DNA of 46,824 nucleotides, from the NCBI GenBank assembly GCA_903903975.1, contig CAIVAS010000137.1, positions 1 to 46,824 on the forward strand. The letters run 5' to 3'. The position numbers were made by a program, and so were the translations under genes. Each line of letters begins with the position of its first letter. Position 1 is the stretch's first letter. Below, piece by piece: positions 18,050 to 21,626 of the stretch. This DNA comes from an uncultured Burkholderiales bacterium. Its GTDB lineage: Bacteria; Pseudomonadota; Gammaproteobacteria; Burkholderiales; Burkholderiaceae_E. A model generated the notes under the pieces. It did no database searches. It was not told the DNA's origin and saw only the letters and a program-made list of their open reading frames with translations.

Positions 18050-19165
18050 ATGAAGAACGACACTTTTTTGCGCGCCTTGCTGCGCCAGCCTACCGACCAC
18101 ACCCCGATCTGGCTGATGCGCCAGGCGGGCCGCTACCTTCCCGAATACAACGCCACACGCAAGCGGGCCGGCAGCTTCCTGGCGCTTTGCAAGGCGCCTG
18201 AACTCGCCTGCGAGGTCACACTTCAACCGCTCGAGCGCTATCCGCTCGATGCCGCGATTCTGTTTTCCGACATCCTCACCGTGCCCGATGCGATGGGACT
18301 CGGCCTCTACTTCGCCGAAGGCGAGGGCCCGAAGTTCAGCAACCCGGTGCGTGACGAGGCTGCGGTTCGCCGCCTGGCGGTGCCTGATGTCAACACCGAA
18401 CTGCGCTATGTCATGGATGGCGTGTCGACCATCCGAAGGGCGCTCGATGGCCGAGTGCCGCTGATCGGCTTTTCGGGCAGCCCCTGGACGCTGGCCTGTT
18501 ACATGGTTGAAGGGGGGGGCAGCGACGATTTCCGTCAGGTCAAGACGATGCTCTACAAGCGCCCGGACCTGATGCACACCATGCTGACGGTGACCGCCGA
18601 CGCAGTCCGCGACTATCTCAATGCCCAGATCGATGCCGGCGCCCAGGCGGTCATGATCTTTGACACCTGGGGCGGCATCCTTCCGGACGGCCATTACCAG
18701 AAGTTCTCCCTCGGCTACATCCGCCGGGTGATGGAGGGTCTGCGCCTCGAACGCGAAGAGCGCGCGCCCGATGGAACGGTCACGCGGGTGAGGGTGCCCT
18801 CGATCGTCTTTACCAAAGGGGGCGGACTATGGCTGGAGGACATTGCGGCCAGTGGTTGTGACGCCGTCGGTCTCGACTGGACGGTCAATCTTGGCCAGGC
18901 CCGCGCTCGGGTTGGTTCGCGTGTTGCACTGCAGGGTAACCTCGATCCGATGATCCTCATGGCCAATCCCGAGCAGATTCAGGCCGAGGCCATCAAGACC
19001 CTCGAGAGTTATGGCGCCCCGCAATCAGGCCAGGGACATATCTTCAACCTTGGCCACGGCATCTCGCAGTTCACGCCGCCCGACAACGTGATTGCGCTGG
19101 TTGAAGCGGTGCATCAATACAGTCGAGAACAGCGTCGTCGCGGCGCTGCGGCGTCCGATTTATAG
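18050..19165 (+). CDS. hemE: Uroporphyrinogen III decarboxylase
   Basis: Cytoplasmic haem-pathway enzyme that removes four acetate carboxyls from uroporphyrinogen III to give coproporphyrinogen III, 371 aa. The N-terminal signature [15 protein letters not shown] (about residues 20-34) and the catalytic-aspartate loop [14 protein letters not shown] (about 74-87) are intact. [16 protein letters not shown] matches the second signature. It is slightly longer than the E. coli enzyme, with an insertion around [17 protein letters not shown] and a short basic tail. A TAGAAT hexamer at 17975-17980 could be its -10 box, but the -35 is poor. Confidence 0.97.
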
Positions 19166-19439
19166 GTCGGCGCGCACCACTTATGCACATTTTGGGTGAC
19201 CCTGTCGAGTGCCCCCTCTGATCGCCTGCTCCTGCTTTGTGTGTTTCGCAAGTGACTGATTTATTTAGTATTAATTTTGTCGAATATTTAAGCATACGGC
19301 GTCGGACCGCGCAACAGCGCGGGTTTGCGGGCAACCGACCAACGCTGTCCACACTATTGTCCACAGCTTCTGTGAACACATCGGAAAACACCTGCGGGTC
19401 CAAGACTTTCCGACCTATTTGAAGGTTTTACTTTAAGTT
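19166..19439. promoter_or_regulatory. AT-rich hemE-priA intergenic region with DnaA-box-like sites
   Basis: This 274-bp gap holds a perfect TTATNCACA match (TTATGCACA, 19181-19189), CTGTCCACA (19345-19353), TTGTCCACA (19357-19365, the form favoured in high-GC genomes) and GTGTTCACA on the minus strand (19371-19379). About 39 bases at 19258-19296 are 82 percent A/T in an otherwise GC-rich window. A small hairpin, CCGCGC-AACA-GCGCGG, is at 19307-19322. Layout resembles a DnaA-binding cluster beside an unwinding element. It may be a replication origin, a DnaA-titration site or a DnaA-controlled promoter of priA; sequence alone does not decide. Confidence 0.5.
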
Positions 19440-21626
19440 GTGATCGCTCCGGCCACCATTGCCCGCGTGGCACTCGACCTGCCCTTGCCGGAGTTGTTCG
19501 ACTACGCCCTGTCTGCTGATTCACCGATTTGTCCGGGTGACTGGGTCATCGTGCCCTGGGGCCGCAGCCGTCGGGTCGGTCTGGTGGCGGCGCTCGCCGA
19601 CAGCACGACCGTGCCTCCCGATCGCCTGCGAGTGCTCGACGAACGATTGCCCGGCATGCCTCGTATGCCGGCCCACTGGCTCGAGCTGATCGGCTTCGGA
19701 TCCCGGTATTACCACGCCGGTTTTGGTGAGCTGGCGCTGCCGGCGGTACCCAAGCTGTTGCGCACGGTCCCGGGCGCGCGCAGCCGTGGGTCGGCGGTTG
19801 TTCGGGCACGGGAACGTTTCGCGGCAGATCTGCCCAAGCCGACTGAAGGTATCGACCATCCAGATGGTGAGCGGGTACTGACTTCCGGCCAAGCGGAGGC
19901 ACTCAGCCAGATTCAGTCCTGCACCGGGCATGCGGTTTTCCTGCTGCACGGGATCACCGGCAGCGGCAAGACCGAGGTTTATTTCCGGTGGCTTGCGGCC
20001 TTGCTGGCGCATGATCAGGCCGCGCAGGCGCTGGTGCTGGTGCCTGAGATCGCCTTGACGCCCCAGTTCGCTCAGCGCATTCGCGAGCGATTTCCGATGC
20101 TGCCGCTCGCCATCCTGCACAGCGACATGCCCGACGCCGAACGCGCCGCGCACTGGCTGGCGGCGGCCGAGGGGCGCGCCCGGATCGTGCTGGGCACCCG
20201 GCTTGCCGTGCTGGTGCCGCTGCCAGCCCTGGTGGCGGTGGTGGTCGACGAGGAGCACGATGCGTCCTTTAAGCAGCAGGAGGGGGCGCGCTACTCGGCC
20301 CGCGACCTGGCGATCGCGCTGGCCGCGCGCCGCGGCCTGCCGATCGTGCTCGGGTCGGCCACGCCGTCGCTTGAGAGCTGGCACGCCGCCCGCCGCGGCC
20401 GCTACCGGCTGGTCAGCCTGCGCGAACGCGCCTCGGGCGCGAGTTTGCCGCTGGTGCAGCGCATGGCGCTGCGCGGTGCCCGTCTGCAGCATGGTCTGAC
20501 CGATCCGGCGATCGCGGCGATCAACGAGACCGTCGCCCGTGGCGAACAGGCCCTCATCTTCCTGAATCGCCGCGGCTATGCGCCGGTCCTGAACTGCGGC
20601 GCCTGCGGCTGGCTCAGCAGGTGCGACCAGTGCGATGCCTATCGGGTCATGCATAAGGTCCCGCATCGGGTGACGCATCAGGCCACGCAGCAGGTGGGCG
20701 CTGCGACACCCGTGCGGCCAGCCTCGAGCAAGAGCGAGTCGCCGCGTTCGCAGGCTGACGCGACCCCGTCTGCCTCACCACAGCGCTATCGGTTAGTGTG
20801 TCATCACTGCGGCGCAGATCAGCCTGTACCCAGGTCTTGCCCCGAATGTGGCAATGTCGATCTGGCCGGACTCGGTCGTGGCACCCAGCGGCTTGAAGAG
20901 GGCCTGCAGTCGCTGTTTCCGAGCGCGCGCATCGGCCGGCTCGATCGCGATGTCGCTCGTCGGCGCGGCGCGGCGCAGCAGATGCTCGATGCTGCGCATG
21001 CCGGCGAGGTCGATCTGCTGGTCGGCACCCAGATGCTCGCCAAGGGTCACGACTTCCGGCGTCTCACTCTGGTGGTGGTGGTTGATGCCGACGCGGCGCT
21101 TTTTGCCGCCGACTTTCGTGCGCCCGAGCGGCTCTTTGCCACGCTGATGCAGGTGGCCGGGCGTGCCGGGCGCCATCATGCCGCCAGCCGGGTGCTGATC
21201 CAGACACGCTTTCCGGAGCATCCGGTGTTCGTCGCCCTCGCCGCCCACAACTTCGATCGCTTCGCCGCCGACCAGCTCACCGAACGCGAGCAGGCCAGCC
21301 TGCCGCCCTTCGTGCATCAGGCGCTGCTGACGGTGCAGGCCCGATCGGCCGACGACACCATCGCCTTCCTGGCTGATGCCCGACACCGGCTGCTGTCGGC
21401 CGACACCGATCCGCCGATTCCCGACACCGTGCTGGCCGCGCTCACCGTCTGCGACCCGGTACCGATGCCGCTCGCCCAGATGCGCGGCCTGGCCCGTGCG
21501 CAGATGCTGGTCGAGTCGCCGTCGCGCCCGGCGCTGCATGCCGCGCTTGGCCCCTGGCTGGCCGCGCTGCGTGCCCAGCGCCATGCGGCGCGCTGGCAGC
21601 TGGTCGTCGATCCGCTTGAAATCTGA
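19440..21626 (+). CDS. priA: Primosomal replication protein N' (PriA helicase)
   Basis: Replication-restart 3'-to-5' helicase, 728 aa, GTG start. The DNA-binding N-terminus opens ARVALDLPLPELFDYAL. Walker A GITGSGKT is at residues 171-178 and DEEHD at 270-274. Eight zinc-binding cysteines are present: C386, C389, C395, C398, C454, C457, C467 and C470. Between the fourth and fifth, about 41 more residues are found than in E. coli PriA (roughly 407-449), rich in Ser, Pro, Ala, Gln and His. The helicase C-terminal motifs GTQMLAKGHDF and QVAGRAGR follow normally. It is 24 bp upstream of the rep-type helicase gene. Confidence 0.96.
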   Translation: MIAPATIARVALDLPLPELFDYALSADSPICPGDWVIVPWGRSRRVGLVAALADSTTVPPDRLRVLDERLPGMPRMPAHWLELIGFGSRYYHAGFGELALPAVPKLLRTVPGARSRGSAVVRARERFAADLPKPTEGIDHPDGERVLTSGQAEALSQIQSCTGHAVFLLHGITGSGKTEVYFRWLAALLAHDQAAQALVLVPEIALTPQFAQRIRERFPMLPLAILHSDMPDAERAAHWLAAAEGRARIVLGTRLAVLVPLPALVAVVVDEEHDASFKQQEGARYSARDLAIALAARRGLPIVLGSATPSLESWHAARRGRYRLVSLRERASGASLPLVQRMALRGARLQHGLTDPAIAAINETVARGEQALIFLNRRGYAPVLNCGACGWLSRCDQCDAYRVMHKVPHRVTHQATQQVGAATPVRPASSKSESPRSQADATPSASPQRYRLVCHHCGADQPVPRSCPECGNVDLAGLGRGTQRLEEGLQSLFPSARIGRLDRDVARRRGAAQQMLDAAHAGEVDLLVGTQMLAKGHDFRRLTLVVVVDADAALFAADFRAPERLFATLMQVAGRAGRHHAASRVLIQTRFPEHPVFVALAAHNFDRFAADQLTEREQASLPPFVHQALLTVQARSADDTIAFLADARHRLLSADTDPPIPDTVLAALTVCDPVPMPLAQMRGLARAQMLVESPSRPALHAALGPWLAALRAQRHAARWQLVVDPLEI

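Follow-up and report, generated by a model that had tools for sequence, protein, structure and literature searches.

A conserved cluster of DnaA boxes with an IHF-type site between hemE and priA in Burkholderiales, probably a DnaA-reactivating control element of the DARS2 type

The sequence analysed here, referred to as the window, is a stretch of 46,824 nt from an uncultured Burkholderiales bacterium (G000:C137:1-46824) whose genome amounts to 3.95 Mb in 270 contigs. Within it, hemE and priA are separated by a gap of 274 bp (19166-19439), with ATP synthase genes upstream of the gap and a UvrD/Rep-type helicase gene 3′ of priA. The G+C content of the gap is 50%, compared to 64% for the window. 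The features of the locus are as follows.

18050-19165, plus strand: hemE, uroporphyrinogen decarboxylase, left flank (Pfam URO-D, 1.3e-135)
19172-19186, plus strand: Fis-consensus match GNNYANNNNNTRNNC, 0 mismatches, overlapping box A (loose consensus; a chance match is possible)
19181-19189, plus strand: DnaA box A, distal, TTATGCACA (conserved in relatives)
19249-19261, plus strand: IHF-type site CAAGTGACTGATT, 1 mismatch to YAANNNNTTGATW, 68 bp after A (consensus match)
19253-19291, no strand: A/T-rich 39-mer, 82% A/T, overlapping the IHF-type site and its flank
19345-19353, plus strand: DnaA box B, CTGTCCACA, at the position of DARS core box III (sequence match)
19357-19365, plus strand: DnaA box C, TTGTCCACA, at the position of DARS core box II (sequence match)
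19371-19379, minus strand: DnaA box D, GTGTTCACA, inverted, at the position of DARS core box I (sequence match)
19440-21626, plus strand: priA, primosomal helicase, right flank (Pfam PriA_3primeBD, DEAD, PriA_C)

A preliminary description of this DNA had placed four DnaA boxes in the gap, three on the plus strand and one on the minus strand, together with a 39-base segment of 82% A/T. All of these are present at the places listed above, and the segment at 19253-19291 is the A/T-richest of all 39-mers in the window. That dnaA is absent from the window, as was also claimed, is correct: the gene was found on contig C13 of the same genome, between open reading frames that we identified as rnpA/rpmH and dnaN by reading rather than by profile scan, with a single exact TTATCCACA in its upstream DNA. 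Four products of the genome match the HU/IHF family, three strongly and one weakly, with HU and IHF counted together. A structured RNA in the gap was considered and rejected, with no Rfam match in 18900-19800 at E values up to 1. On a plasmid-like contig of the same genome (L301, G000:C142), which carries a rep-like reading frame without a Pfam match, a ParA gene and a ParB-like reading frame, we noticed a DnaA-box pair between rep and parA (rep and ParB identified by reading).

The number of boxes does not exceed chance and was therefore dropped as evidence for an element. Allowing up to one mismatch, TTRTCCACA matches five times in the whole window against 7.76 expected, which is no excess, and the single exact TTATNCACA (0.13 expected) was equalled in 13 of 100 shuffles. 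Compared to TTWTNCACA, box C has one mismatch, and B and D, which are weak, have two each. The arrangement is another matter: B lies 12 bp before C and the inverted D 14 bp after it, and the geometry of box, IHF-type site and box was reproduced in none of 60 whole-window shuffles and none of 2000 gap shuffles, with a template whose tolerances were chosen with the data already in view. Stronger evidence comes from conservation in relatives.

To compare relatives, we assembled 93 hemE-priA gaps from 80 named loci, mostly labelled betaproteobacteria, and 30 loci from a relatives search of 61 genomes. The set includes the window's own gap and some species twice, leaving 90 unique gaps; each gap was taken to begin at the stop of hemE and to end where the priA alignment starts, and a few contain an additional kilobase. 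Two exact same-strand TTRTNCACA boxes, 174-189 bp apart and in the places of A and C, occur in 76 of the 93 gaps, so that the boxes are kept across relatives; the first is TTATGCACA in 58 of these 76 and the second TTATCCACA in 70. The C box is present in 85 of the 90 unique gaps. Relative to it, and using the best-fitting candidate where one gap offered several for C, B stands at -12 (up to two mismatches) in 82 of 85 gaps, D at +14 in 61 of 85, and both in place in 59 of 85. These offsets are sharply preferred: 56 of 57 inverted boxes found 8-29 bp after C with up to one mismatch are at +14, and 63 of 68 direct boxes found 8-30 bp before C are at -12. Judged from this sequence conservation, the cluster of DnaA boxes in the hemE-priA gap is genuine and ancient.

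The IHF-type site is similarly constrained. After removal of three duplicates and of 17 gaps without the A/C anchor pair, 73 anchored unique gaps remained, of which 55 have a match to YAANNNNTTGATW (up to one mismatch) 61-72 bp after A, with 50 matches at 66-68 bp. As a control, the reversed IHF consensus gave 12 matches anywhere in the 73 A-C intervals, compared to 73 for the true consensus.

Across the order, the two-box (A/C) pattern has matches in 190 of 300 genomes, compared to two matches for a reversed control in the same 300; places were taken only among the matches listed, and some matches resemble unrelated box pairs. With TTGTCCACA as its box C, the window itself escapes this pattern. 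In G106:C1, G060:C11 and G313, two or three such matches are scattered over one genome. The element sits at the end of tatD, away from hemE and priA, in two f25-family genomes (L303, about 2657-2841; L291, 4977-5160), the identity of tatD being Pfam-supported in L303 and assigned by reading in L291.

The box-IHF-box template was applied more widely. GTDB's class Gammaproteobacteria takes in the betaproteobacteria, and within that class the template matched in 46 of 370 genomes, with no matches in the controls; 30 of the places were examined. In a sample of the phylum, using exact boxes only, it matched in 41 of 397 genomes, again with none in the controls. By hand count, these divide into 24 of 39 genomes in the order and 17 of 125 elsewhere in the class, with 0 of 233 genomes outside the class in the same exact-box sample. 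The distance from the IHF-type site to box C is 108 bp in the window and 107-113 bp in the 30 class loci. From A to the IHF-type site, the class loci (L258-L287) mostly show 67-70 or 77-78 bp, a difference of roughly one helical turn. Four of the five template matches in family f215 were examined and served as a positive control: all four adjoin queG, three of them with a tRNA-Gly cluster, which is the neighbourhood of datA in E. coli. Because the template recovers these queG loci, it collects both datA and the hemE-priA-type element, and it is the core that separates them.

GC skew was sampled in stretches per genome, in relatives that carry the element far from dnaA; further genomes of the same configuration, such as G234, G084, G125 and G242, were left out. 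The four genomes sampled hold the complete element, with the IHF-type site 107-111 bp before C (up to one mismatch), B at -12 and D at +14 (up to two mismatches each). In G040, dnaA is at 1.282 Mb and the element at 0.143 Mb, and the skew stays minus or close to zero as far as 1.70 Mb and is plus beyond. Five exact DnaA boxes at 1,695,210-1,695,399 (C1; L216 15211-15400) lie within 5 kb of that switch, and this cluster, far from both dnaA and hemE-priA, is possibly the true origin of that family. By eye, a match in G089 at 3,178,162 resembles the five-box cluster. In G261, with dnaA at 2.457 Mb and the element at 1.266 Mb, the switch falls between 2.22 and 2.60 Mb, around dnaA; samples at the element and directly behind it are close to zero (-0.004, +0.010), with minus values on either side. 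G252 has dnaA at 0 and the element at 1.847 Mb in the plus arm; its weak skew is minus at 0 and plus between 1.35 and 2.4 Mb, which puts the switch between 0.02 and 1.35 Mb. G264, a genome of 1.30 Mb with dnaA at 0 and the element at 0.496 Mb, likewise has the element in the plus arm; the skew is plus in the five samples taken between 0.06 and 0.58 Mb, turns minus at 0.75 Mb and is near zero at 0.95 and 1.20 Mb. G050 has hemE and priA at separate places and no match to the two-box pattern; its switch zone, 1.16-1.44 Mb, is broad and takes in dnaA. Where the element is nearer dnaA (G018, G043, G055, G057), the skew is too weak, or the candidate places too close, to separate them.

These data bear on the interpretation given in the preliminary description, which saw in the gap a possible replication origin or a DnaA-controlled promoter. 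Its recognition of a DnaA-type element is borne out by the conserved geometry. Were the gap the chromosomal origin, DnaA would oligomerise on boxes A-D, with IHF bending the DNA, and unwinding would take place in the A/T-rich stretch; DnaA boxes, an IHF-type site and an A/T-rich tract do co-occur in the gap, features that proteobacterial oriC shares with the element, and the skew of the window changes sign near the gap, from -0.039 on its left to +0.010 on its right. In C. metallidurans, the skew is reported to switch some 90 kb away from dnaA, beside a region of 213 nt that contains three perfect DnaA boxes and may or may not correspond to the hemE-priA element (PMC2864759). With the conservation and this report in view, we first favoured an origin as the best reading and gave it up after the skew tests, in which the minus-to-plus switch lies away from the element in all four relatives tested that have it far from dnaA (G040, G252, G261, G264). 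Two complete copies of the element also stand side by side in G043 (L210, G043:C1:5094463-5095123), the oriC of E. coli does not fit the box-IHF-box template, and the A/T-rich stretch coincides in part with the IHF-type site and adjoining DNA, so that it does not have to serve for unwinding. We therefore regard an origin as unlikely, if less firmly so for the fragmented genome of the window itself, and on sequence grounds it looks less likely than a DnaA-recharging switch arranged like DARS2. Multiple matches to the two-box pattern alone were seen elsewhere, with three in G106 and neighbouring ones 0.5-1.2 kb apart in G012, G027 and G192. When such an element lies near dnaA, searches for DnaA boxes can mistake it for the origin. 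For chromosome 1 of B. cenocepacia, PMC4948915 leaves the precise origin uncertain.

The alternative of a priA promoter region under the control of DnaA and IHF draws on position. In hemE-priA gaps the element lies 5′ of priA; priA follows it in 10 of the 30 class loci, with the element pointing to priA in all 10; and in G222 it adjoins priA though hemE is elsewhere. Against this, 20 of the 30 class loci have no priA within flanks of up to 1.5 kb, and the element is distant from both priA and hemE in G179, G237, G264 and G314, following tatD in G314 and a reading frame read as tatD in G264. At least 6 of the 30 class loci (L260, L261, L262, L270, L277, L278) place it between convergent reading frames, a count based on mechanically called frames in loci some of which are related. 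Since the element stands away from priA in some genomes, a priA promoter cannot be its sole role, and we consider this reading very unlikely as the account of the element. Control of priA, as suggested earlier, survives as a possible extra role where the element precedes the gene and fails as a general one.

From its anatomy, the hemE-priA gap probably holds a DARS2-type control element that reactivates DnaA. The mechanism we propose is modelled on DARS2 as described in PMC4245941 and PMC8682772. ADP-DnaA would assemble on a DARS core formed by B (box III), C (box II) and the inverted D (box I), in which C and D point towards each other. A bend made by IHF at 19249-19261 would return the distal box A to the core, perhaps together with a Fis-like factor. 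Contact between the distal site and the core would then promote release of ADP from DnaA and regenerate ATP-DnaA before initiation. That DnaA and IHF bind here and that nucleotide is exchanged is what we infer by analogy, as are the part played by box A and any effect on the timing of initiation. In the literature consulted, DnaA recharging between rounds of replication was worked out mainly in E. coli, and a conserved, easily recognised element at hemE-priA makes it testable in betaproteobacteria. A literature search covering few subscription journals had, among the titles and abstract openings listed, none that names this element at hemE-priA, and an earlier description is possible.

The comparison with known systems begins with the core. 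We scanned the DARS1, DARS2, datA and oriC stretches of E. coli K-12 for the same three-box arrangement. DARS1 and DARS2 share with B-C-D of the window a core of direct boxes at 12 bp and an inverted box at 14 bp, with two mismatches in total in DARS1 and five in DARS2, where the core is weak in the scan. At equal tolerance, no such core was found in the scanned datA and oriC stretches, and the gap is the sole such place in the window. PMC5742627 likewise describes three boxes equally spaced in DARS1 and DARS2, with box I opposite to II and III. The likeness to DARS2 extends outward, with an IHF-type site 109 bp before its middle box (II) on the same strand, compared to 108 bp before C in the window; this figure assumes the nearer of two candidates, the second lying 184 bp before box II, and may not refer to the footprinted site. 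The likeness has limits within the hemE-priA gaps themselves, where D is off +14 in 24 of 85 and the IHF-type site is off its place in 18 of 73.

The distal side differs from DARS2. By scan, DARS2 has no box at the place of A, whereas the hemE-priA element has a strong box there, and as a result the box-A template fits neither DARS1 nor DARS2. Going outward from the IHF-type site, box A follows after 67-78 bp, on the same side as the Fis cluster of DARS2. DARS2 requires Fis and has the Fis sites FBS2-3 beyond its IHF site; in the window, a candidate Fis match at 19172-19186 fits a loose consensus and may be due to chance. Matches to this consensus in DARS2 may or may not be the footprinted sites. 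Both the consensus, GNNYANNNNNTRNNC, and the description of the distal site of DARS2 as a Fis cluster including DnaA box V come from PMC4245941 and PMC8682772. The genomic place is also different, at mutH for DARS2 and at hemE-priA for the present element. In a hand tally of 25 genomes, a non-random sample with the hemE-linked element and dnaA on one contig, 21 have the two no farther than 0.52 Mb apart; E. coli DARS2 is located between oriC and terC. DARS-like sequences are reported to be conserved in many proteobacteria (PMC10380432) and the DARS2 spacing in beta- or gammaproteobacteria proximal to E. coli (PMC5742627).

datA, which together with IHF stimulates hydrolysis of DnaA-bound ATP and represses untimely initiation, offers the other comparison. 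Its resemblance lies in the order of parts, a strong box, the IHF site and a strong box in the same direction with an inverted box at the end, and the box-IHF-box series is all in one orientation, as in E. coli datA. The spacings are close, with 68 bp from A to the IHF-type site compared to 65 in datA and 96 bp from there to B compared to 97. The box-A template, moreover, fits E. coli datA and not DARS1 or DARS2, and it recovers queG loci (four examined of five f215 matches). Measured to the conserved partner C, however, the distance from the IHF-type site is 108 bp rather than the 97 of datA, about one helical turn longer; the inverted box is at +14 rather than the +12 of E. coli datA; and the genomic place is another. 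Box B is absent from the datA loci (0/5). Conversely, in all five datA loci the first strong box (box 2) is preceded at 12 bp by a weak one, which we infer from the sequence to be 'box 7', and none of 66 hemE-priA loci and none of the 30 class loci has it; at other offsets in the range of 9-20 bp before A, a weak box was seen in 4 of the 66 and 1 of the 30, respectively. The weak/strong doublet stands before the IHF site in 5 of 5 datA loci and after it in 61 of 66 hemE-priA loci and 29 of 30 class loci. With the doublet on the opposite side of the IHF site and the spacing of a DARS core, we abandoned a pure datA homologue, and a datA-type element is in our view unlikely from the sequence.

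Compared half by half, the right half of the element is DARS2-like to within about 1 bp and the left half datA-like. Alongside the DARS2-type reading, we tentatively put forward a bolder one, which the sequence makes conceivable although we doubt it: the element may be a composite DnaA-nucleotide switch of Beta- and Gammaproteobacteria, often tied to priA, that joins a datA-like half (distal box and IHF site) to a DARS core at the DARS2 distance and is perhaps the ancestor of enteric datA and DARS2. If so, the distal DnaA box would take the place of Fis, and the state of DnaA itself would decide between reactivation and inactivation.
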